A DNA stretch of 64,000 nt from positions 89,230,941 through 89,294,940 of the forward strand of contig JAVGWX010000002.1 in assembly GCA_036924085.1 (NCBI GenBank). Direction: 5' to 3'. The notes beneath the pieces are model-generated. The model saw only the letters and a list, made by a program, of their open reading frames with translations, searched no databases and was not told the origin of the DNA. The position numbers and the translations under genes are program-made. Numbering within the stretch: position 1 is the stretch's first letter; every line of letters begins with the position of its first letter. Below, in pieces: positions 19,694 to 61,750 of this stretch. This DNA comes from Ariolimax columbianus (lineage: Eukaryota > Mollusca > Gastropoda > Stylommatophora > Arionidae).

Positions 19694-19833
19694 TTAATCA
19701 AGATGCCGAGCAGTGCATGAGCTGCAGCGGTCTGCGACCCAAAGCTGACTGATTGTGTCAGGGCCAGCGACCCAGTGCTGCAAAGACCATTCTACACCTC
19801 CACGTGGTGATCCAGAATAACAGACTCCAAGAG
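19694..19833 (+). repeat. SINE-A left half (host of composite insertion)
   Basis: Head of a SINE-A copy (ATCAAGATGCCGAGCAGTGC, GTGTCAGGGCCAGCGACC, TTCTACACCTCCACGTGGTG). It breaks off at GACTCCAAGAG. The same 11 bases reappear at 26851, from where the SINE body continues. The SINE consensus runs straight across the join, so the 7 kb between is one insertion. Confidence 0.9.
19823..19833 (+). repeat. Target-site duplication, left copy
   Basis: GACTCCAAGAG is present here and at 26851-26861. With the preceding A the match is 12 bp. It corresponds to one stretch of the SINE-A consensus, so it is a true duplication made at insertion. Confidence 0.9.
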
Positions 19834-20457
19834 ATCTGGGGTTGGTCTCTTGCCGCCGAGATTGACTCTCATCCAGTATTCGTACAGCGATCTCAGTCCC
19901 GCCAAACGGAGTGATAGCGCGGGCTTGCCGAAAACGCTCGCTCGCCTCTACCCGGTCATCTAGAGGGACACAATTTGAGGTGTCGTACCGCTGGCAACGG
20001 TGCGTTACTGTGGCCCGTATCGAGAAACTTTAACAGTCAGTGGTGGTTTTTCGAAGGCTTATAGCAGACCTCGACAGTTCGTCTCGCTGGTGGTCATTCT
20101 CTCGCAAAGACCGCTTGTGACCGGCAAATGGAAAGCAGGAATCGTGCCTCAAGGCCCTGTCCTCACCCAACCAGAAGGCAGGCCGTCAGGTAAAAATCGT
20201 CTCCAGTCCCTGTGAAATTCATCGCCGGGGCCGTTGGGATCCGTTCTGCACAGAGCGCCGCCATCCCTCCCCGAGCGAGCCCGGTCGGTCGGTCGTCTGG
20301 TGTGTGTACGGGCCCCTGTCAGGCGGTCCTAGGTCGACGGAGTGAGGGACGGAACAACCGTCCGTCCGTCAGTCGGTCCCTGCGGCTGTCCTGGTGAGGC
20401 TTTTTACACATCCGTTCTCCGCCGACCGGTGAGTGTGGTTCGTACGTCTCCGACAGA
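19834..20457 (+). other. ETS-like 5' region of the composite
   Basis: GC-rich sequence, in contrast with the surroundings, directly preceding 18S. It has pyrimidine-rich repeats such as CCGTCCGTCCGTCAGTCGGT near 20358. This is the position and composition of a 5' external transcribed spacer, possibly with promoter sequence. External spacers are not conserved between animals, so assignment rests on position. If reverse transcription reached the RNA 5' end, 19834 marks the transcription start. Confidence 0.6.
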
Positions 20458-21610
20458 TATCTGGTTGATCCTGCCAGTAGTCATATGCTTGTCTCAAAGA
20501 TTAAGCCATGCATGTCTAAGTTCACACTGTCTCACGGTGAAACCGCGAATGGCTAATTAAATCAGTCGAGGTTCCTTAGATGACACGATCCTACTTGGAT
20601 AACTGTGGCAATTCTAGAGCTAATACATGCTTACCAAGCTCCGACCCACGCGGAAAGAGCGCTTTCATTAGTTCAAAACCAATCGTCGTTTCCCCTCGCG
20701 GGGTTGCTGCGTCCCCACTGGTGACCCTGGATAACTTTGTGCTGATCGCATGGCCTCATGTGCCGGCGACGCATCTTTCAAATGTCTGCCCTATCAAATG
20801 TCGATGGTATGTGACATGCCTACCATGTTTGTAACGGGTAACGGGGAATCAGGGTTTGATTCCGGAGAGGGAGCATGAGAAACAACTACCACATCCAAGG
20901 AAGGCGCGCAACTTATCCACTCCCGGCACGGGGAGGTAGTGACGAAAAATAACAATACGGGACTCTTTCGAGGCTTGGAATGAGTACACTTTAAACCCTT
21001 TAACGATGACCTATTGGAGGGCAAGTCTGGTTCCAGCAGCCGCGGTAATTCCAGCTCCAATAGCGTATATTAAAGTTGTTGCAGTTAAAAAGCTCGTAGT
21101 TGGATCTCAGGGGCAGACGGGCGGTCCGGCTTGCGCCTGTTCATTGCCCGTTGTCTCCTGCCCCACCGTCTGCTGGCTCTCTCCCGCGGGTGCTCTTCGC
21201 TGAGCGTCCCGGGTGGCCGGCGCGTTTGCTTTGAAAAAATTAGAGTGTTTAAAGCAGGCCTCGGCTGCCTGAATAATGGTGCATGGAATAATGGAATAGG
21301 ACCTCGGTTCTATTTTGTTTGTTTTCGGAACTGTTGGTAATGATTAACAGGGACAAACGGGGGCATTCGTATTGCGGCGTTAGAGGTTAAATTCTTGGAT
21401 CGCCGCAAGACGAGCTACTGCGAAAGCATTTGTCAAGAATGTTTTCATTAATCAAGAACGAAAGTCAGAGGCGTGAAGACGATCAGATACCGTCGTAGTT
21501 CTGACCATAAACGATGTCGACTAGTGATCCGTAGGAGTTGCTTCGACGACTCTGCGGGCAGCTTCCGGGAAACCAAAGTGTTTGGGTTCCGGGAAAAGTA
21601 TGGTTGCAGA

Positions 21611-21659
<49 letters not shown>

Positions 21660-21721
21660 GCGGCTTAATTTGACTGAACACGGCCAACACTGAAATGATG
21701 GACAGGCCGAGAGCACTCTCG
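20458..21721 (+). pseudogene. 18S rRNA 5' two thirds, pseudogene
   Basis: Starts at the canonical TATCTGGTTGATCCTGCCAG and can be followed through all early landmarks: CCATGCATGTCTAAG, GTTGATTCCGGAGAGGG-type sequence, AGCAGCCGCGGTAATTCCAG, the V4 region, ATTAGAGTGTTTAAAGCAGG and GGAATTGACGGAAGGGCACC. It stops just past CGGCTTAATTTGACTGAACA, about two thirds along an 18S. It is not functional. The 530 loop reads GTTCCAGCAGCC where essentially all SSU rRNAs have GTGCCAGCAGCC, several bases are missing (for example near 20905 and 20970), and the 3' third is absent. It joins a 28S segment with no 5.8S or ITS between. Confidence 0.95.
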
Positions 21722-22069
21722 TAGGGTCTAATATGGAACGGGTGCTGGCATTAGACCCACGGAAATCTGGGCCAAGCTCCCTGTGGCTCGATTGGCCCGC
21801 ATTTCAGTGTTCGACAAAGGAATTGACGGAACGGCACCACCATGAGTGGAGCCTGCGGCTTAATTTGATTCAAAACGCTAACACTGTAGAAAGACTGAGA
21901 GCTTTTTCGTTGGGTCTAATAAGTAACGTGGACTGGAATTAGACCCACGGAAAACAGGTCAGTCCTACCCTCTTAATGAAAGAGAGTTGCTACGATAATC
22001 CGGCTTAACCCTAGATGAATCGCAGGATTCAGACACTTAGTCATTGACTGACTAAAAAGCCCTCTATTG
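21722..22069 (+). pseudogene. Rearranged 18S/28S junction region
   Basis: The 18S-to-28S join appears three times in tandem, with divergence. The first join is at ~21722. A second 18S piece (21812-21910, including AAAGGAATTGACGGAACGGC and GCCTGCGGCTTAATTTGAT) joins 28S sequence at 21911-22030 (AACAGGTCAGTCCTACC, GAGTTGCTACGATAATCC). A third join is near 22070. Each join contains the hairpin-forming pair GGGTCTAAT and ATTAGACCC (21724-21758, 21912-21946, 22077-22111). An additional inverted repeat, CACTGAAATG at ~21688 and CATTTCAGTG at ~21800, lies around the first join. Confidence 0.85.
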
Positions 22070-22556
22070 ATTCGTTGGGTCTAATAATGAACGGGCGCTG
22101 ATATTAGACCCTCGAAAGACAGGTCAGTTTTACTATACTAATGACAGTGCGTTGCTACGGTAATCCTGCTCAATGCGAGAGGAATCGCTAGTCAGTTACA
22201 TTTGGTCCACGTGCTAGGCTGATAAGCCAACAGGGCGAGGCTACCATCTGAGGGAGTACGGCCGAACGCCTCTAAGCCGGAATCCCGCCCTAAATCTCAG
22301 CACCACTGTGATGGGAGGCTACGATATGGTCGGGACCTGGGGCTCGCGCCCCAGCCCCACACAGTCGAGCCGCAGAAAGATGTCTCTGCCGTCCGCTGAT
22401 CAAAGCAGGCGGGAAGCTTCCCGATATTCACCCATACGGCGATGAGGTTTGAAATCACTAGTAGAAGACTTAGTTCTCGGTCGGGGTGTCGTAAGCAGTA
22501 GCGCAACCACCTCACTGTGAACTGTTGAGACGCAACCCTTGATAATGAGATATGTC
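22070..22556 (+). pseudogene. 28S rRNA 3' end, pseudogene
   Basis: Matches the last ~0.5 kb of animal 28S. Landmarks are GACAGGTCAGTTTTACTATA, ATGACAGTGCGTTGCTACGG, GCGAGAGGAATCGCTAGT, GAACGCCTCTAAGCCGGAAT and the 3' terminal CGGGGTGTCGTAAGCAGTAG, GAACTGTTGAGACGCAACCC. Many substitutions at conserved sites show it is not a functional rRNA. It ends where a 28S ends, and LINE leader sequence follows. Confidence 0.9.
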
Positions 22557-23174
22557 CGCACACCAGGCGAACAACATCTCCGTGCCATGACCAGGCCTGT
22601 CCCCTGGTCAAATGCACTTCTGCCTCGCTCTGTCTGCTATCAGTCATCCCAATGGACGCAGAAGAAATGCAGGCCAGCGGACATTGCACCCCTGTCCTAA
22701 TGTAAACAATATCCCAGGTGGCGGGGAATGCCAGGCGTACCATCACTGCAGAAACGCAGGGAAAATAAAGGGAGCAAAGAGATACCCCACTCACATGCAC
22801 ATGCTACGTTTCTGGCAAGACGTGACGATCCTGGGATACAGACACACTGGACTGCCTCTCTTCCGGGATAGTGCAAACCAGTAGATAACCCATATCATAT
22901 ATAATATCTCATATATTATCACCACACCCTTTAGACACTAGTGAGGAAGACTCGATAGTCCTGTAAGAAACTTCCCTAAGACAGACAACTCTGATCACAA
23001 ACAACTGCTGCCTTGGAGATAGGCTGGGGACAGCCAAAGGCTAAGGAGGGCATCCCTACAGAAACGCCTGTTGAAATCGGATGCATGGGGTCACAGGCTT
23101 AACGAAACAGTGCAACGTATATCGCAGTATGATGACAGAACAACCTTACAGAAAAAAAGTATGGCGCTCATCCT
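22557..23174 (+). other. Leader between 28S end and LINE frame
   Basis: Non-coding link of about 620 bp. It contains an AT-rich patch at 22890-22925. From ~23010 it carries a segment resembling the SINE core: AGAAACGCCTGTTGAAATCG, GATGCATGGGGTCACAGGC. It could be the LINE 5' UTR, 3' ETS sequence, or both. No ORF1-like protein is recognised. Confidence 0.5.
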
Positions 23175-26100
23175 GTGGAGAACCGCCAGGCAGCGAGAGT
23201 GCCGGGCTTCATGCCTCGAATGGGCCCAATCATTGCTACTGGTGGTCACCCACCCATGTGCTGTGGAGTCGAGGCACATAGTGATGGGGCAGAATCTATT
23301 GACCAAAAACACAAGACCCTCAGAATACTACAGTGGAATGCGGAGGGTGTCATTAAAAAAAAGCTCCCCCTAACACATCACTTGCATGAAGGTAAGATTG
23401 ACGTGGCATGTATCCAAGAAACGCACCTCAACAACAACTTCAAATTCTCAATCAGAGGATAACAGACCTTCCGTCTGGATAGAGAAGGTCACAAAGGAGG
23501 GGTTCTGATACTGACCAGAAACTACATACCGAGTAGCGCGGTAGCTGTCAATCCCACCGGACAAGCAGAAGTTGTAGGAGTTGACATAATGGCTCAAGAG
23601 AAGAAGCGCCGCATCTTCAACCTGTACGGACCACCAAATAAATATATGTCGCTCTCGAGTATGGAAGTCAAAGACTCCAACTGCATAGTAGTTGGAGACT
23701 TCAACAGCCACTCGGAGAGATGGGGATACTCGGACACAGACAGCAGAGGTGACGAAGTGGAAGATTGGGAGATGGACACAAATCTCCAACTTATCAATAG
23801 GTCGGAGGATAGCCCTAGCTTCTATTCTAGAATATGGCATACCACCACTAGTCCAGACTTGGCCTTTTCCACGGTGGATATTCACCACAAAATAGACAAC
23901 CAGGTGCTAAACCAATTGGCAGGTAGCGACCACAGGCCAATTAAGCTAGAAGTTGATATGGAAGTAGGCCCTCAGGAAACAAAACCGCTCCCACGTTGGA
24001 ACTATAAACGAGCCGACTGGGACAGATTTGCAATCCTGACAGATGGGCTATGCGAAACCATCAACACACGGAATAACAACATGAAACCCATGGTGGAAAG
24101 CCTAAGCAAAGCAATAATGCAGGCAGCCACCGAAACCATCCCAAGATGGGTAAGGAAAAACTACAAGCCCTATTGGAATGATGAACTGCAGAAAGCGGAA
24201 GACGAAGTCTCAAATGCTAGGAACATAGCAGAGAGAGAACAATCTATGGAGGCAAATATCGCCCTCAAAGCCACCAGGGCGAAATACAAATACACTTTAA
24301 GCCAAATAACAAATGACAGCTGGAAAAACAAAACAGAAAGCCTCAATCTAGACAAAGACGGGAACAAACTATGGAAGTTAGTCAGAGCCATGAACGACGA
24401 AACTCCATCGAACAAACAAATTACCCTCAAGCAGGGCGACAACATGCTCACTGTAAAAAAGGCAGCAAACGCCTTTACAGAACATTATGCCAGAGCAAAC
24501 CACATTGATGTCCTTACAAATAGGCTCACAGACATTAATGAAGAACAAAAGAGGCACGACAACATCAATATGGCACCAGAGGAGCATATGATGGTAAAAC
24601 TAACAATGAATGAAATGGAAGAGGCCATGAGAACTTTAAAGAAAAAGAAATCGCCCGGAAAAGATTGCGTAACAAACGAAATGCTGATGGGGCTGGGCCA
24701 AGCAGCAAAGAGGAAGTTACTATCAGTCCTGAACCAAAGGTGTAAAAGGGGAATAGTACCGCAGGCACGGAAAGATGCGGTAATTATACCAGTACCAAAG
24801 AAAAAGAAAGATAGAGCAGATCCAAATGGATACAGGCCTATCAGCCTACTGAGCTGTGTCGGCAAACTGATGGAGCGTATGATAAACACCAGATTGATGT
24901 GGCATCTGGAAGATAAACACATACTAATTCCACAGCAAGCAGGCTTTAGACAGCACAGATCCACTGAGGATCAGATCACTCTCATAGCCCAAGAAATAGA
25001 GGATGCTTACCAGGAGCAAAAGCACACAGTAGCGATTTGGGTGGACCTAGAAAAGGCATTTGACAAGGTCTGGAAAGACGAACGTAAAGTCAAGCTACGC
25101 AGAAGTGAAGTTTGTTGGAAAATGTACAGATGGATCAGTCACTACCTCAAAAACAGAACAGCCAGAGTTCAAGTACAAGGGCAGATGAGCAAAAAGGTGA
25201 CACTTGAGCAGGGAGTACCCCAAGGGGGAGTACTGTCACCCACACTCTTCCTGGTGTATATAAATAACATCACAGAAAATATACCAAGAAGAGTCCACAG
25301 CTCCTTGTTTGCAGACGATCTGGCTATGTGGATCTCTGAAAAGAACATCACCATAGCAAGTAATCGGATGCAGAAGGCCCTAACATCACTGGAGGAGTGG
25401 GCGAACTCATGGCTGGTCAAAATAAACGATCGAGAGAAACCGAATGAGAGCCAGAAAAAGAATGGCAATCATGAGGAAACTTGCTGGCACAAGCTGGGGA
25501 GCAGACGAAAGTATACTAAAGAAACTGTACACTGGAAGAGTGAGACCAGTTCTCGAGTATGGCATTGCGGCATGGACAACTGCAGCAAAGGCGAACTTTG
25601 ACAAAATTAGCAAACTTCAAAACCAAGCCATGAGAGTTATAACAGAAGGCATGAAGTCAACGCCAATTGTAGAACTTGAAAAGATTACAAAACTGCAATC
25701 CATGACCGACAGCAGAGACTGCAAGGCCCAGCAGCAAGCGGGAAAACTCAGAAGACTGACAGGCCATCCAATGCATAAGAGACTAAATAACTTTGGAAAT
25801 GGAAAACTAAAGCGGAGAAACTTTGCAGAAATAGCCAAAGCAAAGATGAGCGAAAACCCGATGAACGCATTAACAACACCAAAGCCCATCCCTACTGTAC
25901 ACAAACCTACCTGGAGGCAGCATATATTTCCAGAGGTGGTAGAAAACATACCAGGTATTGGAAACAAAAACAGGCAGACTGAAGAAGAAAGAAGAGATAC
26001 AACCCTGAGGTACATAACGAAAAACTACCCAAGCATAGACTGGACCCATGCATACACCGACGGTTCTATAACAAACACAACACAGAACGGAGGGACAGGG

Positions 26101-26835
26101 GTATTCCTGAGCCTACCAAATGGTAGAAAAGTAACACGATCAGTGGCAACTAGAAAATACTCAAGCAATTTCAGAGCGGAAGCAGAGGCACTGAGGGCTG
26201 CAGTAGAAGAAATGGTGACAAGCAAGAGTAATGAAAGCCATATAGTCCTGCTTATAGATGCCCTGGTCGTAGTCACAGCACTAAAAAGCCAGAAAATACT
26301 GAACTTAATGACTTAAGAGCAGTACTCTTGTCAACTATGCTAGCAGTCCGCAACAAAAAGAGTAGTGATACAATGGGTTCCATCCCACTGTAACATCCAA
26401 GGCAACGAGGAGGCAGACAGACTGGCAAAAGAAGGTGCAAGACTACCACAACCAGATACTAGTGCGACATACGAAGAGTCAAAAAGGCTTATTAGAAGAA
26501 CTAGATACATGACCAAATGGGAACACAAAAAATGATGCCTATTACCAGTTGAACAGAAGAGAGCAGGTCGGGGTCTTCAGACTTCGCACTGGCCACAATA
26601 GACTGAGGTACCACCTATACAATAAATTGAAGATAGGTGACACTGACGAATGCACGTGCGGCACTGGGAAAATGACCGCTGAACATCTGCTGCAAAACTG
26701 CCCGACATACTAGGATCAGAGAAAGCAGATGTGGCCATCACCAGTGGTAACACTAGACAAGCTCTATGGCAGTGTCGACAGCCTCAGGATGACCGCTGCT
26801 TTTTTCGAAAAAATAAAGGTTGATGTCTGACAGCG
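23175..26835 (+). pseudogene. I-type LINE polyprotein (EN-RT-RNase H), decayed
   Basis: An APE-type endonuclease begins at LRILQWNAEGV (~23320) with QETH, GDFNSHSERWG (~23695) and SDHRPI (~23930). The reverse transcriptase follows: AVIIPVPKKKK, NGYRPISLLS, VWVDLEKAFDKVW-type, QGVPQGGVLSPTLF and the catalytic FADDLAMW (~25310). RNase H follows with HAYTDGS (~26053), AEAEALRAAVEEM and a decayed C-terminus with a CTCGTGKMTAEHLLQNC-like knuckle (~26650). The frame has one stop at 23461-23463, a deletion of about 49 codons with a frameshift at ~25430, and more breaks after 26316. Architecture fits the I superfamily (I/Nimb type). A close relative, ~88% identical in the RT by eye, is at 38632-40665. 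Confidence 0.95.
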
Positions 26836-26850
26836 TACGAAGAAGAAGAA

Positions 26851-26861
26851 GACTCCAAGAG
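26851..26861 (+). repeat. Target-site duplication, right copy
   Basis: GACTCCAAGAG, identical to 19823-19833, directly after the GAA tail (TACGAAGAAGAAGAA) of the LINE. Confidence 0.9.
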
Positions 26862-27077
26862 GGCAGACTGACTAAGGAGAAGATTTCAAAAAAGGAAGAC
26901 TTATATATCACCCAAAAATGCCTGCTAAAGTCGGATGTGTCGGACTGAACGGTGCACCTATGCAGTCAAACTGTAAACTACGGCACGATGCATTCCGTTC
27001 TCCGGACATCCTGCTACTTGCAAAAGCCCTTTTCAGCGCTTGATAGCGAGAATTTAATATCGAACGACGAAGAAGAA
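26851..27077 (+). repeat. SINE-A right half
   Basis: Continuation of the SINE-A copy split at 19833: GGGCAGACTGACTAAGGAGA, core CCTGCTAAAGTCGGATGTGT, GATAGCGAGAATTTAATATC and the end CGAACGACGAAGAAGAAG. Confidence 0.9.
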
Positions 27078-28010
27078 GAACTTAACTTAACGTCTTTATA
27101 CTGGTTTAGAAGACCCTGCAGAGTCTGTATACAACCAGTTACATTTACATCACCTTTTCTAAAAGCTATGCACATCCAATTTATTCTTAAATGCATTAAC
27201 TGTCCCTGCCTCCACTACCTCCCCTGGCAATGCATTCCAAGCAGACACCACTCTCTGACTAAACAAATATTTCAAAATATCTAATCTGGACCTATCTTTA
27301 GTCAGCTTTTAGCTATGCCCTCTTGTTATTGTGAGTGGCTGTATTTAAAAAAAACTAGTTATATTCTAATTTATCCATTCCTCTGATCATCTTATAAACC
27401 TGTATTAAGTCACCACGAATTCTTCTCTCTTCAAGACATTGTAGGCCGGTTTTTCTGAGTCGTTCCTCATAACTGTAATTCTGGAATCCCACTTTGTCGC
27501 TCTTTTTTGTATTCTTTCCAGCACGTTTATATCCCCTCTATGATAAGGACTCCACACCTGTACAAAGGTCTAACTAAAGCTTTATACAGTTTGACTATCA
27601 CTTCCTTGCTTCTATGTTTAATATTTCTTTTTATCATACCTAACATTGCATTTGCCTTTTTCACTGCTACCTTAACTTGCTCACTTATTTTTCCAGTATG
27701 ATCTATTATAACCTCTAGGTCCCTTTCCTTATATATCTTTCTAATCTTGTTCTCTCCCATTCTGTAATTATGTTCCATATTGGATCTACCCATGTGGAAG
27801 ACTGTACATTTATCTACATTAAACTCCATTTGCCAGCTTACAGACCATTCTCGAATTTTATCTAAATCCGACCTCAATATATCCACTTCCACTTTAGATG
27901 AGACACTACTGCATAGTTTTGTGTCATCAGCACATTTTGCAATCATGGATCCCATATCAATGTCCAAATCATTTATATATATCAAGAACTTGATCGAATG
28001 GAGCAAGGGG
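27078..28010 (-). mobile_element. CR1-type LINE, 5'-truncated
   Basis: Minus-strand CR1 copy starting (at its 3' end) with TTAACTTAACGTCTTTATAC. It reads DIDMGSMIAKCADDTKLCSS (FADD mutated to CADD), VKVAVKKANAMLGMIKRNIK and a decayed C-terminus. It is inserted immediately beyond the GAAGAAGAA end of SINE-A. Frame broken and endonuclease absent. Confidence 0.85.
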
Positions 28011-32015: not shown

Positions 32016-35000
32016 ATGCTAATAGCTGTCCATCGTTGTCGATGAGGACCGCCGACATCATCCTTGTCACAGATTTCCCTGTTGGGTGTGGGTGCGCATG
32101 TGGCTGAACAGGTCAATGCGAGCACAAAAACATCTGCTACATATCGGGCACACGAGGTTTGTAGAAGGGGATGGTGTTCCCGCTGCTCGGGATTTCCGCG
32201 TCTCGCGTCTGTTCTGGGCTTTCACAACACGGTGATCTTCACCGGCAGCTACACCCGATTTGACTGCGCTTCTCCAGTCAGATCTGTTTTTCGCAAGACA
32301 TTCCCAGGTGTCGAAGTCTATCTGGCAACTTTTTAGTGAGTCCTTCAGACCGTCTTTAAAACGTTTCTTTGGGCGCCCTCTCTCGCGCCATCCGTCTCTC
32401 AGCTCGCCGTAGAGAAGCTTCTTTGGGAGCCGCTCGTCTGACATACGGACGAGGTGTCCGGCCCATCCTAGTCGTGCTTTTTCTAGCAGTGCATGTATGC
32501 TGGGCATGTTAGCCCTCGATAGAACCTCGATGTCAGTGACACGATCTTGCCATCGGATGTGGAATATTCGCCTCAGGCAACCTGTGTGGAAGTGGTTTAA
32601 CCTCCTTGCATGTCCAGAGTATACAGTCCAGCTTTCGCAAGCGTATAGTAGGGTTGGAATGATGGTTGCACGGTAGACTTTCAATTTGGTCTTGACGCTG
32701 ATGCCACGACGTGCCCAGACCATCGAGCGCATTCTACCAAAGGCTGTGCTGACCTTTGCTATTCTGCATGCCACCTCATCGTCTAGGCTGACAGATCTCG
32801 ACAGCGTGCTGCCCAGATATGTGAATTTGTCTACGGCATTCAACGTCTGCCCGCTGACTGTAGTCTTTGGTTTTGTGTACGGCATGCCTGGTGCTGGTTG
32901 GTACATGACCTCTGTTTTTTTTGGCATTTATGATCAGGCCAAAATTTTCGCATGCGGCAGAGAACTGGTCCATTCCAACCTGCATGTTCAGTTCTGAGTT
33001 GCTCATTAGAGCACAGTCGTCAGCAAATACAAGTTCCCTGATTATGTCGCCAGCCACTTTGGTTTTGGCCTTCATTCTTCTGGAATTGAGTAACTTGCCA
33101 TCTGTGTGGTACTTTATGGGTATTCCAAGCTCCAATGATCTGAAGGCGTCTGTCATCGTGGCCGCGAACATCATGCTGAACAAAGTCGGGGCGAGTACAC
33201 ATCCTTGTTTTACTCCGTTTGATACTAGAAACGTTTTAGAGATTGCACCGCTGTCCAGTACACGAGCACACATGCCTTCGTGTAGCTGTTTCACCATTGT
33301 TATGAACTTGTTGGGGCAGCCAAACTTAGACATTATCATCCACAGCCCTCCTCTGTTTACTGTATCAAATGCCTTTGTCAAATCAATAAATGTGGTGTAC
33401 AAGGCCTTATTTTGCTCTCGACACTTCTCTTGTACTTGGCGAGCGGCAAAAATCATGTCCACTGTTCCTCTTCCGGCTCTGAATCCACATTGGCTTTCTG
33501 GGAGGTGGTGGCTTTGTTCAAGGTGTTTGTTGAGCCTGTTTAGCAGTAAGCGCGCTAGGATCTTGCCTGCTACGGAGAGTAGCGATATTCCTCGATGATT
33601 GTCGCATTCCTGACGATTGCCTTTTCTATTGTATAGGTGAACGATTGAGGCGTCCTTTAGCTCCTGCGGAATTTTACCTTCAGCCCACATGTGACAGAAG
33701 AGTTCAGTGATCCTTCTGGTGAGGGATGGGCCAGCTGTCTTATATACCTCTGCTGGTATTGCATCAGCTCCTGGAGCTTTTCCTATAGATAGTGAACTGA
33801 TTGCCCTGTCGACTTCCTCCTCAGTAATGACTTCATCCAACGCCAGGTTCAGTTCCACCTGCGGCATTCGCCGGATGGCCTCTTTATTTATGGACGATGG
33901 GTGGTTTAGTATTTTGCAGAAGTGGTCTGCCCATCTGTCTAGAATCTGAACCTTATCTGTTAGCAGTACCCCATCCGCACTGCGAACTGGAGTATTACTA
34001 GAGGGCTGCGGGCCGTAGAGAGCTTTCAGTGCCTCGTAAAACCGTTTGGTGTCATGACGCTCGGCGAACATCTCAATTTCGTCAGCTCTTTTGCTGAGCC
34101 AGGAGTCTTGCATCTCTCTAAGCCTGGTCTGGACAGCTTTGCGAGCAGTATTGAACGCAGCTTTTGCTGCCGGAGATGGTGTGTCCCTCTGGTATTCCCT
34201 GTGCGCTTCATGTTTTGCATCGAGAAGGCCCTGTATTTCTAGATCGTTCTCATCAAACCAGTCCTTATGCTTGCGCGTGATTGGGCCAATGTGTTTAACA
34301 GCTGTATCGTAGGGTGTGTTTCTCAATGATGCCCAGTTCTTTTCGATGTCGTTCTTTTCAAAACGAAGCTCAGACAGTCTACCCTCAAGCTCTTCCTGGA
34401 AGCCTCCTCTCGTGGGTTCGTATTTCAACTGAGAGACATTTAGCCTTCTCTGTGGTTTCTTTCCCTGGGGGCGCATTTTGGGCTGGATCTTGAAGTTTAG
34501 CTTGGCAATGACAAGTCGATGGTCGGTCCAACATTCTGCACCACACATGCTCTTCGTTACCATAGCATCCGCTCGATCCCTACGTCTGATGATAATATAG
34601 TCAATGAGGTGCCAGTGGCGGGACCTTGGGTGCATCCATGTGGTTCTATTTCGGACAGGTAGTCGGAAAGCTGTGTTTGTAATGAGTAGTTCATTTGCAG
34701 CACATGTCCTCAGAAGGAGCAGTCCGTTACTATTGCATTTTCCGATACCATGTCTGCCAATGGTCCCCTCCCATGCTGTATGGTCTGTGCCAACCCTAGC
34801 GTTAAAATCACCGAGGATGACCAGTTTGTCAGATTTGGGGACTGCAGCGATGAGCGCCTCAAGGTCCTCATAAAACTTATCTTTTGTTTCCTGAGGATTT
34901 GTCATTGTGGGTGCGTATGCACTGATGAGTGTTGCATGGCGCCCTCCTATTAGGGGTAGACGCAGTGTAATCAGGCGGTCATTAATTCCTCTGGGCATGC

Positions 35001-35571
35001 TTGTGAGCTTGTCGACCATGTTGGTCTTGATGGCAAAGCCAACTCCAGCTTCACGGCGTTCTTCTTTGCTGCGGCCGCTCCAGAAGAAAGTATAACCAGC
35101 GCCTTCTTCTGTGATCTGCCCTTCCTCCGCCAGTCGTTTCTCACTCAGGGCAGCTATGCAGATGTTGTATCTAGCCAGTTCCCTGGCGATCAGTGCTGTC
35201 CGTCGTTCGGGTCTGTTTGCTTTGGTGTTGTCCAGGAGCGTGCGGACATTCCATGTTGCAAGCGTGAAGGTTAGTTTTCGTGATCGTTTTCTGTCTGTTC
35301 CGCTGCTGCAGTTTGGGGGCCCTGCCAGTTGCGAGCTGCTAGTCAGGGTATGATCTGTAGGGTGATGTCGTGAGTTGCGCAATATGTTTATAGTGAGGGA
35401 GATGTGCGCAGGATCTTCCTCACTCTCTCGTCCGGACTCAACATGTTCTAGAGGCAAGACATTGTCAAGACTTCTAGTGAAGGGTTCGGATGCAGACAGT
35501 ATGGTGTCAGCGTGTGCCTCATTATCTCGGTAGCCCTTCCCTTCTCTTTTATCGCTGGGGTGGAGCTTTGA
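32016..35571 (-). mobile_element. Near-intact RTE-type LINE (3.56 kb)
   Basis: Insertion bounded by a 13-bp target-site duplication in SINE-A; 3556 bp is about full length for RTE elements. One polyprotein frame covers almost all of it on the minus strand. The 3' end is at 32016, and no long simple-repeat tail is visible. High coding integrity inside an older SINE indicates a recent insertion. Confidence 0.92.
32067..35571 (-). CDS. RTE endonuclease/reverse transcriptase, one frameshift
   Basis: The protein starts before an APE-type endonuclease (TFTLATWNVRTLLDN at ~35270, LISAYAPTMTN, ILGDFNARVGTDH at ~34810, DYIIIRRRDRAD, WTDHRLV). A connector leads to the reverse transcriptase (GKAPGADAIPAEVYK at ~33770, NHRGISLLS, FIDLTKAFDTVNR, NGVKQGCVLAPTLF, catalytic ELVFADDCALMSN at ~33030). 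A thumb (KFTYLGSTLSRS) and tail (ACESWTVYSGHARRL, LGWAGHLVRMSDER) follow, then a C2H2-type finger (CPICSRCF, SHMRTHT) at ~32085-32150. The frame shifts once at an 8-base A-run (plus-strand T-run 32915-32922); this could be a sequencing error. The open frame also extends upstream into SINE-A, which is fortuitous; the native start codon is uncertain. Confidence 0.93.
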
Positions 35572-35812
35572 GGTATCCCGGATAGCAGGCTGCAATAGAG
35601 CAGACTGGCTAAGAAGAAGGGATCGAAGAGGGAAGGCTAATCCAGTACTCAAAAATGCCTGCTGAAGTCGGATGTGTCGGACTGAAAGGTGCAAATATCG
35701 CAGTCAAGCTGTAAACTACGACACCGCATTCTATTCCACATACTACATCCTGCTACTTGCAAAGCCCTTTTCAGGGTTTGGTAGCGGGAGATTGAGAACG
35801 AACGAAGAAGAG
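35572..35812 (+). repeat. SINE-A right half
   Basis: Continuation of the copy broken at 32015: GCAGGCTGCAATAGAGCAGA, core CCTGCTGAAGTCGGATGTGT, GGTAGCGGGAGATTGAGAAC, GAACGAAGAAGAGG. The first 13 bases are the duplicated target site. Confidence 0.92.
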
Positions 35813-38192: not shown

Positions 38193-38507
38193 ATTTAAAC
38201 CAAAGAGAAAGCCGCGCTGTTTTGGATCAGTACCCATAATCCGTTGCGTCAGCAGTAGAAAAGGGCTAAGATGTCTTCGAAGAAACACCCTGAACAAGAG
38301 ATGGTACTCTCAGTCTCCTACTCGACCGTGTGATACAGCCTTCTCCGCGAGATTACCAAGGTCAAGGAGGTTCAACTTAGAGGTTAGAGGTCAGAACTTA
38401 GGCTTAGCCACCGAAGATGGTGTATGCAGGGACGAATGTGTGGGGCCGATGGAGTATCGGATGAAGGTGCCAACGGAATGTAACACGCAAATTCTCAATC
38501 ACATGAG
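38193..38507 (+). CDS. Host gene, internal exon (phase 2/2)
   Basis: A 315-bp exon with textbook borders: acceptor CATCTTTTTTTTCTTCCAG ending at 38192 and donor GAG|GTAAAA at 38508. It starts with one base completing a codon and ends with two bases of a codon, so its length is a multiple of three. It encodes about 104 residues (FKPKRKPRCFGSVPIIRCVS, RRNTLNKRWYSQSPT, CRDECVGPMEYRMKVPTECN), basic and cysteine-containing. The split arginine codon AG|A is completed by the first base of the exon at 41818. Earlier exons were not found; the window upstream is repeats. I do not recognise the protein family. Confidence 0.75.
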
Positions 38508-38631
38508 GTAAAATGTTGCTGGTGGTGAGGATGTTGTTGCTGCTGAGAATCTGAATTGTAGAGTGATAGAGCGCTCGCTTCCATGGTAAAAGTATAGCGT
38601 TTTCTCCCTGTTACGATGCTTTTGTTCTTCT

Positions 38632-40665
38632 CCTTCTTCTTCTTCTTCGTACGCAGTCAGACAGTAACCCTTATTTTTTTCGAAAAAAGCGGCGATCATC
38701 CTGAGGCTGTCGCCGCTGCCATAGAGCTTGTCTTGCAGTTCCACTGGTGATGGCCACATCTGCTCTCTCTGATCCTCGTATGTCGGGCAGTTCTGCAGCA
38801 GATGTTCAGCGGTCATTTTACCGGTACCGCACGGGCATTCGTCGGTACCACCTATCTTCAATTTGTTGAATAGGTGGTACCTCAGTCTATTGTGGCCAGT
38901 GCGAAGTCTGAAGACAACGACCTGCTCTCTTCGGTTCAACTGGTAATAGGCATCGTTTTTGGTGTAACCAGTATGTTCGGTTTCCCATTTGGTCATGAAT
39001 CTGGCTTTGATAAGCCGTTTTGACTCTTCGTACGTCATACTAGTATCTGTTAGGGGTAGTCTTGCACCTTCTTTTGCCAGTCTGTCTGCCTCCTCGTTGC
39101 CTTGGATGTTGCAGTGTGATGGGACCCACTGTACCACTACCCTTTTTGGTGCGGAATGCTGGCACAGTTTGCAGAGTGCTGCTCTTAAGTCATTAAGCTC
39201 AGTGTTTTTCTGGCTTTTTAGCGCTGTGACTACGGCGAGAACATCTGTAAGCAGGACTATATGGCTTTCATTTTCATTGTGTGTCACCATTTCTTCCACT
39301 GCCGCCCTCAGTGCCTCTGCCTCCGCTCTGAAATTGCTTGTGTACTTACCAGTAGCGAATGACAGTGTTATTTGTTTGCCATTTGGTAGGTTCAGGAATG
39401 CTCCTGCCCCTCCGTTCTGTGTATTGTTTGTTACAGAACCGTCGGTGTATGCATGGGTCCAGTCCATGCTTGGGTAGCTTTTCGATATGAAGCTTAGGGT
39501 AGTATCTCTCCTTTCTTTTTCAGTCTGGCAGTTTTTGTTTGCAATACCTGGTATATTTTCTACCACCTCTGGAAATATATCCTGCCTCCAGGTAGGTTTT
39601 CGTACAGTAGTGATGGGTTTTGGTGTTGTTAGTGCGTTTATGGGATCTTCGTGCATCTTTGCTTTGGCTATTTCTGCAAAGTTTCTCCGCTTTAGTTTCC
39701 CATTTCCCAAATTGTTTAGTCTCTGGTGCATTGGATGGTCAGTCAGTCTTCGGAGTTTCTCTGACTGCAGCTGGGCTCTGCAGTCTCTTCTATCGGTCAT
39801 GGATTGCAGTTTTGTAATCTTTTCAAGTTCTACAATTGGCGTTGACTTCATGCCTCCTGTTATAACTCTCATGGCTTGGTTTTGGAGTTTGCCAACTTTA
39901 TGGCAGTTCGCCTTTGCTGCTGTTGTCCATGCCGCAATGCCATACTCGAGAACTGGTCTCACTCTTCCAGTGTACAGTTTCTTTAGTATGCTTTCGTCTG
40001 CTCCCCAGCTTGTGCCAGCAAGTTTCCTCATGATTGCCATTCTTTCTCTGGCTTTCATTCGGTTTCTCTCGATCTGACTTTTCCATGTCATGCGCCGATC
40101 AAATGTGACTCCCAGATAGGTTGGGTTGTCGTTTGGCTGCAGGAATTTGCCATTTAAGCTTAATTTTGTATTTTGGGGTTTGATTGAAAGCGAGAATATT
40201 GTGCATGTGGTTTTCTCCTCGTTTATTTTGACCAGCCATGAGTTCGCCCACTCTTCCAGCGATGTTAGGGCCTGCTGCATCCGATTTCTTGCTATGGTAA
40301 GATTCTTTTCAGAGGTCCACATAGCCAGATCGTCTGCAAACATTGAGCTATGGACTCTCCTTGGTATATTCTCTGTAATGTCGTTTATATATACCAGGAA
40401 GAGTGTGGGTGACAGTACTCCCCCTTGGGGTACTCCCTGCTCGAGTGTCACCTTTTTGCTCATTTGCCCTTGTACTTGGACTCTGGCCGTTCTTTGTTTG
40501 AGGTAGTGGTTGATCCACTTGTACATTTTCCCACAAACATCACTTCTTCTTAGCTTGGCTCTAACTCCGTCTTTCCAGACTTTGTCAAATGCCTTTTCCA
40601 GATCCACCCAAACAGCTACTGTGTGTTTCTGTGCCTGGTAGGCATCCTCTATTTCCTCAACCTTA
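38632..40665 (-). mobile_element. I-type LINE, 5'-truncated, frame intact
   Basis: One open minus-strand frame covers the reverse transcriptase from the first catalytic region (VDLEKAFDKVW) through RTARVQVQGQ, GVPQGGVLSP and FADDLAMW (~40320). Then come the thumb, RNase H with all catalytic positions (HAYTDGS, AEAEALRAAVEE, LLTDVLAVV, VPSHCNIQGNEEADRLAKEG) and the terminal knuckle CPCGTGKMTAEHLLQNC, ending in a GAA-type tail. The endonuclease and RT N-terminus are lost by 5' truncation at ~40660. It lacks stops, so it is a young insertion in the host intron, antisense to the gene. An 8-bp TTTTGTTC match on both sides is only weak evidence for a target duplication. Clear relative of the LINE in the rDNA composite. 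Confidence 0.93.
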
Positions 40666-41094
40666 ATCAACTTTTACCATTTTTGTTCATGTTTTTTTTC
40701 CATTATATACACCCACAGAGCCGCTGCAGCCTCGTCTTATTTTAAGACGAAAAGAGAAGCGAGTCCTAAGTTACCACCAATGCGACTTCATTGGGGACAA
40801 AAAATATCAAACATATAAGCTAACAATTCATAGAGGAAGGGATGAATACATAAAATTGACATAAAAACACATAAATGAGTAAGAGAAGGGGCTTAGCTGG
40901 ATAGCACATAAGAATTCGTCACTGATCTCCTTACCTGTGGACACACCGTCGGTATATCCAACCATCTCCCACTTCCTGCGCTCTGCTGCCTATGCCACTC
41001 CCGCATACTTGTTTCACCCCTGTTATCTTGCGCCTGACGTGTCTACAGGCGAGTAGATCAGTGATGTGTTCTTAAGTGTTACATCTCACCTTTG
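40666..41094. other. Unassigned intronic sequence
   Basis: Contains a short perfect hairpin, CGTCTTA TTT TAAGACG, near 40733-40750. No exon or element recognised. Confidence 0.4.
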
Positions 41095-41720: not shown

Positions 41721-41817
41721 TACATGTACCTGATCCTATGTGGGTATGTGTCAATGTATTTCACCTTACACTGACGTTCGATTCTTAAAATGTTCTTTTT
41801 GTGTTCTTAAAATTTAG

Positions 41818-44800
41818 ATGCAACTGTTCTGCTTGCATGAACTTTGCCTGTCACTGGAGGAATGCTCTGAAGAACGAGTTTAAGAAGCACGTGAGAGATC
41901 CGTTAGCGCCCAGACGTAAGCCACAGAGATGGATGCCTGTTTTGGGGAGATGCCTAACACCGGATAGGGCCCGCGTGTTCGAAAGAGGCAATAGATTCTA
42001 CACCAATAGATTGAAGTCCGGGTCAAGGAGATACCGTCAGTCTCCTCAGATGTCTTGGTGGTTCGGAGATAGAGCTCCCTCACAAAACCCTGCTGATGGT
42101 TTCCAGAACACATGTAGGTCTTGCGGGGAACATAGACAGCTTGAGAAATTAAATCATATGTGTACGTTAAAGAAGGCCGCCTCGCAATCTGAACTTGACG
42201 GATTTCAGGATGTAGCTATGGACGGTACGACACGAGAATCACGCTTGCGTGATCGCTCTAGGAAAATGCGTCTTGATGACCAGGTTTGTCGAGATAATGC
42301 GACCGGATGTTCCTCGGTGAGGTCAAGAACAGCACGAATGAGTCACGTGACTGAAGACATGGAGGATGCAAACACTTCACGCATACCTCAAATCGACCAA
42401 ATTAGAGGCTTGGATTACCACAGATTTAACGTTGAGGATGCTTCGAGAAAATACGAGGATTTGACAAATGAATCACAAGAGTCGAACACGTTTTACCGAC
42501 GCCATGACGCGAGGGAGAATTTAGCTAATAGACACAGCAAAGGCCAAAACATAAGTCATACCAGATATCACCTTTCACCCGAGTTAAATTATAGTGAAAT
42601 CTCAGACAAAATAACAAATAAATATTCCCACACGTATGATGGTCACATAGATGGCATTCGTAATCTAAACCGAACCATATCTGAAGGCAATGACACGAAA
42701 ACGAATAACAGTATCTGTAATTATCAGATTAAGAATGAGTTTGCGTCCCCTGGAAGCAAAGAGATAAGATGTAAGAGACATTTTTACCAGAACTATAGAG
42801 ATGAGTCTAGCCCTGTCTCCCATAAACAAGAGTTTGGTGAGGAATCAAATAGAAGATTACCTGTCTCCCATACACAAGAGTATGGCCATATGTGTAGTAA
42901 TAAATCATCTGTCCCTTTTTCTGAAATACAAAGGTGTAGTGATGGTTCCATTAGGAGATTGCCTTTCCCTGCACCCAATACACAAACGTATAGTGGTGAT
43001 TACATTAGGAAAACGTCCGTTCCTGATTCTCATTTACAAAAGTATAGGGATGATACAAGTATGAAAGTATATGATCCTTGTTGTCATACACAAAGGCATG
43101 ATGATTCCACCAGAAAATTATCTTACTCTGCCTCTCATGCACAAACAGATGGTGATGATTCTTGTAGGAAATTAAATGATCGTTTTTCTCATAGACAAAC
43201 GTATACTGATTCCCCCAGGAAACTATCTTTCCCCCTGCCCCATACTCAAACGTATAGTGATGATATATATAGAAAATCAACTTTATCTGAGTCATGCAAG
43301 TCTAAGTATCCATTAACTAAGGATAGCGATGGATTGAAATATTATCCATGGTGCGATGAAAGAGATAGTGAGAAATATTCATCTGAAGATATATTCCAAA
43401 GAAACGCCAAGTTCGATAATTGTGGTGATGCCGGAAGCAAGTTCTCGCATGCAGATGGCGACCAAAGCAAAAATCGTCATTACTCTCATCATTCGGGACA
43501 AGACATGCCGGAGAGGGGTCTTCAGGACCAGATAAACTCACATCATCCTCCTCATCATCACCACTACCACCCTCACCGTGATCAACACTACCCATCCCAT
43601 TATTACGGCAGTAACTCTAGCAACGATGGGAACCCACATGGGGCATACCAGAAAGAAAACCTGAGGCGATGTTCGGAGCATTCGTTCACGGCCGACGAAA
43701 GTGATTCATACTCTGACTGTCCCGAGGTACGGGAAAAGTCGGATTTAAATACAAATGTTGACAACAGATTATTGGAAGAAGAACCATTGGAAGCATGTCT
43801 GCCAGATGAAGACGTGATTAAGAAAACCTATTCAGCTTCTTCAAAGTTCAAAGAACGTCAAGAAACAGAATGTGAAAAGAGTGATGCATTTGATGTCATC
43901 AAACTCAATGGGAGTGATAAATCTAGGTCTTCAAACAAGTTGTACGGTCGCTGGACCACGATTAGTCCGGACACGCTTAAAGGTGACAGTTGCCATTCTT
44001 GTCATAGATCACGCGATTGCTGCATGGAATTCAACGAAAACAGAAAGAACAAGGTCACAGACTGCCCGTACACAGATATCTCTAAGATGACTTGTTCGGA
44101 ATCGGTAGAAATGGGTAGATACAAGAACAGTTCCGTTGACACTTCTCCTAAATCCCGAAGGCAGACGACAAAGCGAAAATCACACGCATCCTCTTCTTCT
44201 GATAAACTATCTATGGAACCAATAAAGACCATAACTAACAAGCAGAGGCATCAACGAAATGCCTTGCTTTCCTTTGACGACAGATGCGGCGTGAATAGTC
44301 AGGAAGATCAGTCGATCGCTCATGTTTATAGATGCAACTTAAAACCTTCGCGAGAAGTGTTGCTCAATCCCGTTGACATTTGCAGTTCAAAGACTCCCAG
44401 AGATACATCGCTTTCTCGCGTTGACAAATATCACTTGAAGACTCCCAGAGATACATCGCTTTCTCGCGTTGACAAATATCACTTGAAGACTCCCAGAGAT
44501 ACATCGCTTTCTCGCGTTGACAAATATCACTTGAAGACTCCCAGAGATACATCGCTTTCTCACGTTGACAAATATCACTTGAAGACTCCCAGAGACACAT
44601 CGCTTTCTCACGTTGACAAATATCACTTGAAGACTCCCAGAGATACATCGCTTTCTCACGTTGACAAATATCACTTGAAGACTCCCAGAGATACATCGCT
44701 TTCTCGCGTTGACAAATGCAACTTGAAGATTCATAGAGCTCAGTCGCCCTCCCCTGTTGACCATTGCAGCATGAAAACTTCAAGACGTCACCGGAGATCT

Positions 44801-45157
44801 CGTTCAATGTCTAAAAGAACGGACGCTGTCATAAATAAGACAGCGTTCAACTTAAGAAAGACGTCAGACACGACGCATTCAAACTCAACTGGTTCACGAA
44901 TTTGTCATAACAAGGACCAGCGTGGTAAGGAACCCCTCCCATTCGGGCCATCAGAGCGGGCTATGAGAGACGAAAGACCCAAGACTCGACCGGAGTGGCT
45001 AGACAAACACCTATCGCTTATGACGCAGTGCAGCGACGAGCGACAGAAGAACGCAAAGTCTCGAATGAAGAGAATAGTGGACAAAACCCACGCACTGGGC
45101 AGATCAACCGGAAACATGCACATGGATCTTGGAGTCCTGCACGAGCGGTTGGACAAG
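41818..45157 (+). CDS. Host gene, large exon of novel protein
   Basis: 3340 bp open throughout (1113 codons plus one base). The acceptor is TTAAAATTTAG at 41816-41817; the first base completes the codon from the exon at 38507. It ends AAG|GTATAACT, where read-through would meet a stop at once. The N-terminal ~110 residues are best ordered: a cysteine cluster (CNCSACMNFACHW), a basic segment, and a CRSCG, HMC pattern (CX2CX10HXC) that could bind zinc. The middle (about 400-560) has degenerate ~20-residue repeats built on HTQxYxDD and RK. A His/Tyr-rich patch lies at ~43540-43620. At 44385-44720 seven near-identical 16-residue units LKTPRDTSLSRVDKYH follow. The C-terminal 60 residues are charged and probably helical. 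No family recognised; mostly disordered by composition. Confidence 0.88.
44385..44720 (+). repeat. Coding 48-bp minisatellite, seven units
   Basis: Seven tandem 48-bp units in frame encode LKTPRDTSLSRVDKYH or the variant with H for R, flanked by decayed units (NPVDICSSKT before; HRAQSPSPVDHC after). Near identity of the central units shows recent slippage or unequal exchange. The TPRDTSLSR core offers repeated Ser/Thr sites in a basic context; function unknown. Confidence 0.95.
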
Positions 45158-45306
45158 GTATAACTATTTCTCTAATTCCTGTAACTTAGCCTATTCTTAA
45201 CATTTCATTTATTCATCGTGTTGTCTTTCCTTGTTTCCGTCCGTAATCTTTTGTTCTATCATGTTACGAATAAATGCCGCTGCACTCCGCGCAGACCCAT
45301 ATGGTG

Positions 45307-46715: not shown

Positions 46716-46769
46716 TGCGGTTGATTGATTTTAGCATGCGGACATATTTAAATGAGCCAATGACTGCCC

Positions 46770-48310
46770 AATAGAATATGACTCCCCGATAGATAATGAC
46801 TGCCCGATAGATATTGACTGCCTGATAGATATTGACTGCCCGATAGATAATGACAGTACGATAGATAATGATTGCCCGATAGATAATGACAGTATGATAG
46901 ATAATGACAGTACGATAGATATTGACTGCCCGATAGATAATGACAGTTCGATGGATAATGACTGCCCGATAGATAATGACAGTACAATAGATAATGACTA
47001 CCCGATAGATAATGACAGTACGATAGATAATGACTACCCGATAGATAATGACAGTACAATAGATAATGACAGTACGATAGATAATGACTACCCGATAGAT
47101 AATGACAGTACAATAGATAATGACAGTACGATAGATAATAACTACCCGATAGATAATGACAGTACGATAGATAATGACTACCCGATAGATAATGACAGTA
47201 CAATAGATAATGACAGTACGATGGATAATGACTGCCGGATAGATAATGACAGTACGATAGATAATGACAGTTTGATAGATAATGACTGCCCGATAGATAA
47301 TGACAGTACGATAGATAATGACAGTACGATAGATAATGACAGTACGATGGATAATGATTGCCTGATAGATAATGACAGTACAATAGATAATGACAGTACG
47401 ATAGATAATGATTGCCCGATAGATAATGATTGCCCGATAGATAATGACAGTACGATGGATAATGACTACCCGATAGATAATGACAGTACAATAGATAATG
47501 ACTACCCGATAGATAATGACAGTACAATAGATAATGACAGTACAATAGATAATGACTGCCCGATAGATAATGACAGTACAATAGACAATGATTGCCCGAT
47601 AGATAATGATTGCCCGATAGATAATGACAGTACGGTGGATAATGACTGCCCGATAGATAATGACAGTACGATAGATAATGATTGCCCGATAGATAATGAC
47701 AGTACGATAGATAATGACTACCCGATAGATAATGACAGTACAATAGATAATAACTGCCGGATAGATAATGACAGTACGATGGATAATGACAGTACGATAG
47801 ATAATGACTGCCCGATAGATAATGACAGTACGATAGATAATGACAGTACGATAGATAATGACTGCCCGATAGATAATGACAGTACGATAGATAATGACTG
47901 CCTGATAGATAATGACAGTACGATAGATAATGACAGTACGATAGATAATGATCGCCCGATAGATAATGACAGTACGATAGATAATGATTGCCCGATAGAT
48001 AATGACATTACGATAGATAATGACAGTACGATAGATAATGACAGTACGATAGATAATGACAGTACAATAGATAATGACTGCCGGATAGATAATGACTACC
48101 CAATAGATAATGACAGTATGATATATAATAACAGTACGATGGATAATGACAGTATGATAGATAATGATTGTATGATAGATGATGACTGCCCGATAGATAA
48201 TGACAGCATGATAGATGATGACTACCCGATAGATAATGACAGTACGATAGATAATGACTACCCGATAGATAATGACAGTACGATAGATAATGATAGTACG
48301 ATAGAGGAAT
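46770..48310. repeat. 18-bp minisatellite, ~85 units
   Basis: About 1.54 kb of 18-bp units of GATAGATAATGACAGTAC, mixed with GACTGCCC-, GACTACCC- and GATTGCCC-containing variants, often forming 36-bp pairs. Unit length is a multiple of three, so frames on both strands stay open (473 codons on plus, 331 on minus). No start context, neighbours or composition suggests a gene, and the array lies in an intron. Confidence 0.95.
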
Positions 48311-48605
48311 TATGAATCTAGGAGTTTGGAATCCTTACTTACGATAGATGAATTATGAATCTAGGAGTTTGGAATCCTTACTTACGATAGATGAATTATG
48401 AATCTAGGAGTTTGGAATCCTTACTTACGATATATGAATTATGAATCTAGGAGATTGGAATCCTTACTTACGATAGATGAATTATGAATCTAGGAGTTTG
48501 GAATCCTTACTTACGATAGATGAATTATGAATCTAGGAGTTTGGAATCCTTACTTACGATAGATGAATTATGAATCTAGGAGTTTGGAATCCTTACTTAC
48601 GGTCC
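48311..48605. repeat. 43-bp minisatellite, ~7 units
   Basis: Units GATGAATTATGAATCTAGGA, GTTTGGAATCCTTACTTACG are almost identical. It begins within the last GATAGA unit of the 18-bp array, from which it seems to have been seeded. Confidence 0.95.
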
Positions 48606-59935: not shown

Positions 59936-60499
59936 TGATTCGTTTCTAGATCAATTTGTTTTATATGATCCGTTTGCCCGTACCATGCACAATCTTCATT
60001 AGCAGCATTTATGCAGATGCTATACAAGCGCTAACTACTTCACTTTAAATTTTGATATTGTGAAGAAGGCTTCTTTTCCAAAACCTGCCAAAGCAGCCTC
60101 TGTCATCTTCAAACTCTACTTCAATCGCGTTTTTGCTTCTCTGAGATTTCTTATCATGAAGCAGGCTAGGAACATCACCTTGGAGGCTACTGTGTTTCAC
60201 CACCAGCCCACATCAGTAGAAGGTTCTCCAACAAGTGTATCACGCTTCTTTATAACTGTATTGCATACTCTCGCAGCACTTTTAATTTCTCACAACCCTT
60301 TTGATATAACCTTCATAATTCTTCTTTATATTCCTCGTCTTTTTCTTCTCCTTCCTCTTCGTCTTCTTCGCCCTTATCACCATGGGGTGGAAGAGGCACC
60401 AATCAATCCTCTTCAAGCAGATTTAGACTTGTTGAGTCCAGTTATGCCATCATAATAAAAGATTGCTATGTTTGGCGGAACGCCGTAAATCTGTGCAAT
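59936..60499. other. No supported feature
   Basis: Contains a pyrimidine-rich CTTCTTC tract around 60315-60375 and a minus-strand open stretch at its right end (IAQIYGVPPNIAIFYYDG, stop at 60413). The latter looks protein-like but has no recognisable family. Confidence 0.3.
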
Positions 60500-60960: not shown

Positions 60961-61262
60961 ATGAGAAACAATTACAAACAAAAGAGAGACAGGGGGAAGG
61001 AGAGGGGAGAGATAGAGAGAGAGAACGATTAATTAAACACATTAATTACACAAATCATAATTAAATGAAGATTTCGACTTTGTTAAATTATTTTTTTAAT
61101 CTAATTTTTATATGTGCACAATTTATTGTCGGTAATTTTTGTTTGTTTGTTTCCTCATCATCATTATCTATCCCCTTGTGTGGTTAGACGTCGTGGGGAG
61201 GTGTAGTTTTCAACTAGAGCAAACTGTATTCCGAAACTGATGTCAGAATGAAACATAACTGT
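60961..61262. other. No recognisable feature
   Basis: Purine-rich GAGA tract at 60985-61030, then AT-rich sequence. Confidence 0.4.
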
Positions 61263-61605: not shown

Positions 61606-61750
61606 CCCCAATGAAACATAATTAAATCAAACAACGGTTCTCCAAAAAATGTGCGCGCCTGTCCGGTTCGGCCATTTCCATTTGTTTGTTTACGTTTTAT
61701 AATTTCTAGTTACATGCAAATGTATTTTTGTAAATGTGTTTCTTTTAATT
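61606..61750. other. Short spacer
   Basis: Nothing recognised between repeat B and the 21-bp array. Confidence 0.35.

Follow-up and report, generated by a model that had tools for sequence, protein, structure and literature searches.

A LINE lineage with a pre-ribosomal RNA 5' region dispersed in the genome of Ariolimax columbianus

Results

The window analyzed here, a 64,000-nucleotide stretch of the Ariolimax columbianus genome (assembly GCA_036924085.1, contig JAVGWX010000002.1, positions 89,230,941 to 89,294,940 of the forward strand), contains a short interspersed nuclear element (SINE; 19697-27079) that is interrupted by a single 7,017-bp insert (19834-26850). The insert is a copy of a long interspersed nuclear element (LINE) in which precursor ribosomal RNA (pre-rRNA) makes up a 5' region of about 2.7 kb. 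It consists, in order, of external transcribed spacer (ETS), part of the 18S rRNA, junction units, the 28S 3' end, a 3' ETS-like stretch, a leader, a LINE with endonuclease (EN), reverse transcriptase (RT) and RNase H, and a GAA tail (Table 1). An 11-bp target duplication, GACTCCAAGAG, flanks the insert at 19823-19833 and 26851-26861. Because GACTCCAAGAG stands on both sides and alignments of six further SINE copies within the window cross the join, 19834-26850 is one insertion, which confirms the split SINE-A copy proposed in a preliminary description of the window made from its sequence. Both hallmarks of target-primed reverse transcription, a target-site duplication and a 3' tail, are present.

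The contents named in that description were largely borne out. The first 626 bases of the insert align with the ETS of the genome's own ribosomal DNA (rDNA) arrays, differing by 17.3% from the array ETS read, and Rfam matches to the small-subunit rRNA (20461-21591, 837 bits) and the large-subunit 3' end (22146-22553, 100 bits) are far above chance. The 18S had been called far from intact, which is correct for its missing 3' third but not for the remainder, which departs by only 3.1% from the array 18S that was read. Ahead of the 28S 3' end stand three old 18S::28S junction units; their inverted repeat pairs fully (10 of 10) in 19 of 37 matches, a count that carries little weight because the search pattern itself demanded most of the stem.

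Table 1 Coordinates of the interrupted SINE and of the parts of its insert, in window positions
Feature	Positions	Strand	Basis or remark
Interrupted SINE, 5' part, ending in the target-site duplication	19697..19833	+	
Pre-rRNA 5' ETS, from the presumed RNA polymerase I (pol I) start (A/TCTGGGG) to the 18S	19834..20460	+	Alignment with array ETS
18S rRNA, about nt 1-1240, 3' third absent	20461..21683	+	Rfam, array alignment
Junction unit 1, fusion of an 18S and a 28S piece, containing the GGGTCTAAT...ATTAGACCC inverted repeat	21621..21815	+	Start overlaps 18S part
Junction unit 2, fusion of a further 18S piece with 28S	21816..22042	+	
Junction unit 3 running into 28S 3' end, diverged	22043..22556	+	
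3' ETS-like stretch right after 28S	22557..22610	+	Matches locus L071 to 22587; by eye to about 22610
LINE leader, without a long + strand open reading frame (ORF)	22611..23300	+	
EN and RT frame, broken	23316..25430	+	Start by eye
RNase H part, broken by stops	25431..26530	+	
LINE 3' end with (GAA)n tail	26531..26850	+	
Target-site duplication (26851-26861) and SINE 3' part	26851..27079	+	

The EN-RT-RNase H frame was also recovered. Pfam finds an APE-type endonuclease and an RT in one frame (Exo_endo_phos_2, 5.6e-16; RVT_1, 1.1e-35) and RNase H in the next (25.7 bits against a cut-off of 25.8, E 1.4e-5). This copy has a stop near 23460 and, relative to other copies, lacks about 130 bp near 25428. 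A second, 5'-truncated copy of the same LINE (38499-40670, - strand, about 88-89% identical) carries an open RT-RNase H frame of 723 aa, with RNase_H at 63.3 bits in the stretch 38502-40670. In the broken window copy, the one read for a gag-like ORF1, no + strand ORF of 150 aa was found at 22557-23300 and none was seen by eye in the three frames; the element is therefore described as I-like and not filed as a member of the I superfamily. The best 120 of 558 LINE protein matches are 41-66% identical, and those among them that are named by organism come from Batillaria (3), Littorina (3), Elysia (1), and a clam-symbiont entry (1). The nearest relatives, which we take to be the gastropod I-type LINEs (Nimb and kin), share EN, RT, and RNase H with the present element, which differs in its rRNA 5' region and in that no ORF1 was found in the window copy, the relatives being compared by protein. 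The leader at 23059-23083 weakly resembles a central part of the SINE (84% over 25 bp, E 0.15), and both elements end in GAA repeats.

The genome searched comprises 2.29 Gb in 401 contigs (numbered here with C) and contains the window. A query of 28S tail plus leader (22146-23300) gave 40 scored matches out of 7,836 first-look candidates; one is the window and the other 39 are 85-93% identical. Thirty loci chosen by this query, which already holds the 28S tail and leader, were read (numbered with L, L001 being the window), and the 28S-tail, 28S-end, and leader probes were found in 30/30; the 18S probe, which lies outside the query, was met within 1.5 kb upstream in 15. An independent sample was drawn with an ORF query (23400-24600), which gave 40 long matches including the window, and the upstream side was fetched for 27 of the 39 others. 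The 28S tail is present in 12 of these 27 (L075, L082-L085, L088, L098, L101, L104, L106-L108). Five unfetched ORF matches (C3:78768731, C17:32014237, C13:53082752, C10:53798161, and C16:57033282) adjoin matches that reach the 28S tail, and their addition brings the count to 17 of 32. The rDNA-derived region is common to many dispersed copies. Where the preliminary description had weighed a one-off event against a lineage, and had envisaged further loci joining the 28S end to the leader and LINE, such loci exist and the lineage is supported; the single event is refuted because so many other copies share the fusion.

The remaining 15 ORF-chosen copies stop short of the 28S tail, 14 of them at differing points from 22637 to 23352. 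Breaks at 23157-23352 account for 10 of the 15, an uneven clustering in the roughly 200 bp just before the ORF, for which an enzyme stall or a second transcript start is possible. No 5' region other than rRNA was seen beyond 22643 among the 27 copies, and a second kind of 5' region may exist at the short copies. One short copy (L081/L094) ends in an 82-bp tandem repeat of several units, which contains LINE bases 23368-23422 and lies directly before the ORF copy.

The 5' ends were read in 11 copies, namely the window, L017, and nine whose 18S extended past the stretch read first. Nine of the 11 (window, L017, L005, L006, L020, L023, L024, L025, and L028) start at 19834-19837, L026 starts at the common place with altered first bases (by eye), and L013 starts 23 bases inside it. 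The common start is the base where the array ETS begins after GGAATGTATATTA, which precedes the ETS in five array stretches on four contigs (L049, L051, L052, L053, and L060). Because of its position and the AT-rich motif, this base (+1) is presumed to be the pol I start of the pre-rRNA. By eye, the upstream flanks look unrelated over 40-60 bases, with the exception of L025, where a piece of LINE leader precedes the start; L024 was inserted into the 3' end of an older LINE in inverted orientation. Of nine copies tested for target duplications, four show a clear one (L005, L006, L023, and L024) and two an imperfect one (L020 and L025), with no call for L013, L017, and L026.

The suggestion that the 5' region perhaps included a pol I promoter gained no support, since the copies read begin at +1 and array sequence upstream of that base is therefore absent from them. 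A genome search for the array promoter core with +1, allowing ≤2 mismatches, gave 126 matches. Among the 100 matches listed, all exact, 98 lie on small contigs, mostly with the array-like spacing of about 12.3 kb, and two lie on large contigs (C10 and C12), both in rRNA/LINE composites. The C12 composite has at least 570 bp of array spacer, the promoter, ETS, the 18S start, 28S, and 3' ETS, and after a gap of about 1.5 kb the 3' end of a LINE (26641-26850); that on C10 runs through 28S, 18 promoter bases, +1, ETS, and 18S to about nt 218, which is fused at 23295 to a LINE that continues to its tail. L025 also raised the idea that the leader (22557-22943) is an rDNA spacer promoter, which found no support: the array sequence before +1 differs, and the majority sequence of the leader copies has no match in L049, of which about 3.7 kb reads N.

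Different pieces of pre-rRNA are found on the same LINE. At L057/L061 (C8), a LINE copy 83% alike over 3.86 kb starts at the common base. Its ETS differs by 4.4% from that of the arrays, and its 18S extends over the full length of the gene (96.3%, with 55 gap columns); roughly 130 nt lie between this 18S and the junction units, after which come the 28S tail, the leader, and the LINE. The exact 18S-end sequence occurs 30 times in the genome (22 on C1-C22) and the exact 28S-loop sequence 27 times (26 on C1-C22). In 6 of 10 such places that were read (L062, L064, L065, L067, L069, and L070) the 28S tail runs into the leader, and five of these reach or pass 23346; at L063 and L066 the stretch ends before the leader could appear, and at L068 and L071 the 3' ETS gives way to other sequence. 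A 5.8S is present in L065, and the 18S is 99.7% alike over 891 nt in L063 and only 91% alike in L062. ETS and 18S are both present in 5 of 10 stretches expected to hold an 18S start and both lacking in the other five. Related subfamilies thus carry a whole 18S, an 18S end with 5.8S, or a longer 28S, so that capture happened several times.

Two copies are themselves composite. In L025 a leader piece (22678-22943), apparently of a second LINE RNA, abuts base +1, and a duplication that agrees at 13 of 14 positions flanks the composite, which looks like one insertion. L021 holds two 28S-tail/leader stretches in tandem. Both suggest that template jumps occur in this LINE family. Among the 18S-bearing copies, one junction unit is present in L028 and L027 (the latter with a deletion), two in L002, L009, L013, L020, and L023, and three in the window and others. 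This variation and the differing pre-rRNA pieces agree with the longer history that the preliminary description had sensed. The number of units was tried as a subfamily marker and abandoned, as it does not cluster on the tree. L071 (1150-1400) and L068 (2120-2201) share a sequence after 28S and 3' ETS, accompanied in L071 by a tRNA-like GGTTCGAATCC, which is perhaps a second rRNA-headed element. At L068 774-1717 a LINE 3' end (98.6% like L061) lies inside 28S, with 28S on either side.

Discussion

We favor, with a probability of roughly 0.6, a LINE lineage in which reverse transcription has switched repeatedly from the element's own RNA to pre-rRNA and continued up to the pre-rRNA start, with the resulting chimeras multiplying. 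During target-primed reverse transcription the LINE enzyme would first copy its own RNA and then, in the 5' part of that RNA, jump to a pre-rRNA molecule, probably where old 18S-like LINE sequence matches 18S. It would run on to the pre-rRNA 5' end, setting the common start, and some chimeras would have become sources and amplified. In the window type, the boundary between fresh and old rRNA falls in 21621-21683, where an old 18S-like unit matches 18S; homology therefore probably guided the jump or, alternatively, an exchange with rDNA. These observations suggest that such elements can join themselves to one of the cell's most abundant RNAs.

The ages of the layers weigh against this reading. 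The majority 18S sequence drawn from 12 copies agrees with the array 18S (L049) at all but 3/1194 sites, and in 10 copies the ETS departs from that of the arrays by 17-23%; the 28S tails are 76-93% like L071, the stand-in on which their age rests because the functional 28S reads N. Mean pairwise differences among the same 10 copies (45 pairs; 36 for the ORF) are 0.107 for ETS, 0.055 for 18S, 0.106 for the 28S tail, 0.067 for the leader, and 0.064 for the ORF, and inner branches appear in the ETS and 28S-tail trees, with the 18S and LINE-body trees being nearly stars. The ETS and 28S tail are CpG-rich, and substitution rate could be part of the difference between trees, yet end branches differ far less than inner ones. 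Joint capture of ETS and 18S predicts an equally fresh ETS, and this mismatch is the main result that repeated jumping leaves unexplained; sources in or near rDNA or a constraint on the 18S fit the trees and ages at least as well. Since copies beginning at +1 have no upstream promoter, amplification of the chimeras is likewise unexplained. Discordance between ETS and 28S tail was also considered as proof of recombination and set aside as weak: the 28S tail rejects L023+L026 (p 0.019) and not a five-row ETS clade (p 0.08), groups that were named only after the trees had been viewed.

Master copies residing in rDNA units and co-transcribed by pol I, with the 18S refreshed by exchange while ETS and 28S drift, and with promoterless dispersed offspring, would account for part of the 18S/ETS mismatch better than template jumping does. 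Such masters fit the start of copies at the first base of array ETS homology, an 18S that forms a star around the array 18S, rRNA pieces that precede the LINE in natural order, and a leader that opens with 3' ETS-like sequence right after 28S. However, no LINE was seen inside an array (the post-18S sequence fetched in C222, C50, and C298 reads N), an array-resident ETS should be homogenized as well, and co-transcription alone yields neither the differing breakpoints of the subfamilies nor the L025 join of +1 to another copy's leader; on balance we consider it unlikely. Selection on the 18S within the element, for instance for entry to pre-ribosomal particles or the nucleolus while its neighbors drift, would match the nearly unchanged 18S majority beside a linked, far more distant ETS and the near-zero inner branches of the 18S tree. 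It is improbable, given that 15 of the 30 leader-chosen loci have no 18S probe in the 1.5 kb upstream (these may be dead truncations), that other subfamilies hold other 18S parts, and that the incomplete window-type 18S cannot make a ribosome.

Two simpler accounts are scarcely credible. Single 28S/LINE-1 chimeras are known in mammals, as PMC13174262 describes, and would make a lone template switch or read-through at the window locus conceivable, but the fusion is common to many other copies. An assembly join of rDNA and LINE could be suspected because rDNA is hard to assemble and the arrays here contain N; it is ruled out for practical purposes by the same 28S-leader join at 30/30 loci on many contigs with different flanks, and the clear target duplications in four of nine copies likewise speak against it.

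Beyond repeated jumping, we tentatively put forward, at rather less than even odds, a LINE lineage dependent on pol I transcripts. Its chimeric sources would be rDNA-linked or promoter-bearing, its rRNA head would be renewed repeatedly from host pre-rRNA, and its 18S would be kept near-functional by rDNA exchange or by use in nucleolar routing. The C10 and C12 composites, with the array promoter core before +1, would be candidate sources. If pol I does drive a protein-coding LINE outside rDNA, it would have to be explained how a transcript that lacks a cap is translated.

Several known systems resemble parts of this element. Rodent L1 elements have monomer-type 5' UTRs (untranslated regions) with tandem units that vary in number, as here, where the units are instead 18S::28S junction pieces. 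R1 and R2 elements are co-transcribed from the pol I promoter, and R2 has a hepatitis delta virus (HDV)-like ribozyme at its 5' junction. No HDV-like ribozyme was detected at the 5' junction of the window insert, as only rRNA families match 19700-23300 up to E = 1 in Rfam, and no fixed rDNA insertion site was found, the window copy lying in a SINE and other copies at differing flanks. The R2 transcript contains rRNA, which is a likeness to the present LINE; this LINE differs in being dispersed, in having RNase H, and in carrying rRNA at its 5' end. A 3' UTR that includes a 28S-like stretch is described for some R2 families (PMC5035012). PMC13174262 also mentions rRNA-derived SINEs of 5S and 28S types, in which an element mobilized by LINE machinery likewise has an rRNA head, whereas the present element is a LINE with its own EN-RT-RNase H. 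In the closest set of known rRNA/LINE chimeras the rRNA is mostly sense and fused to a LINE, as here, and is ascribed to RNA ligation or template switching; that set comprises 18 loci with 28S pieces of median 269 nt, compared with a 5' region of up to 2.7 kb, many copies, and a presumed pre-rRNA start in the present family.

A LINE family with a pre-rRNA 5' region was not found in the literature, judged by titles and abstract starts with few subscription papers covered. Chimeras of rRNA and LINE, rRNA-derived SINEs, and rDNA-resident LINEs are already known; what appears to be new here is that a LINE lineage spread through the genome bears a long 5' region of pre-rRNA, with repeated capture and a +1 start. 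The system bears on the origin of new promoters and 5' ends in non-LTR elements. Its donor is known, with a presumed single-base start and with donor ETS and 18S in the same genome, and because captures of different ages stand side by side, capture, renewal, and amplification become datable and testable. Dispersed rRNA signals in such genomes call for caution, as they may be LINE copies.

Additional observations

Elsewhere in the window, another LINE-like region (32067-35694, - strand) has an EN-RT-like frame of 972 aa, recognized by eye and unmatched by the insert. A 1120-aa open frame at 41801-45163 (+ strand) contains a repeated HLKTPRDTSLSRVDKY motif, and long minisatellite-like repeats at 46748-48315, 60413-61064, and 61736-62522 are open in several frames.

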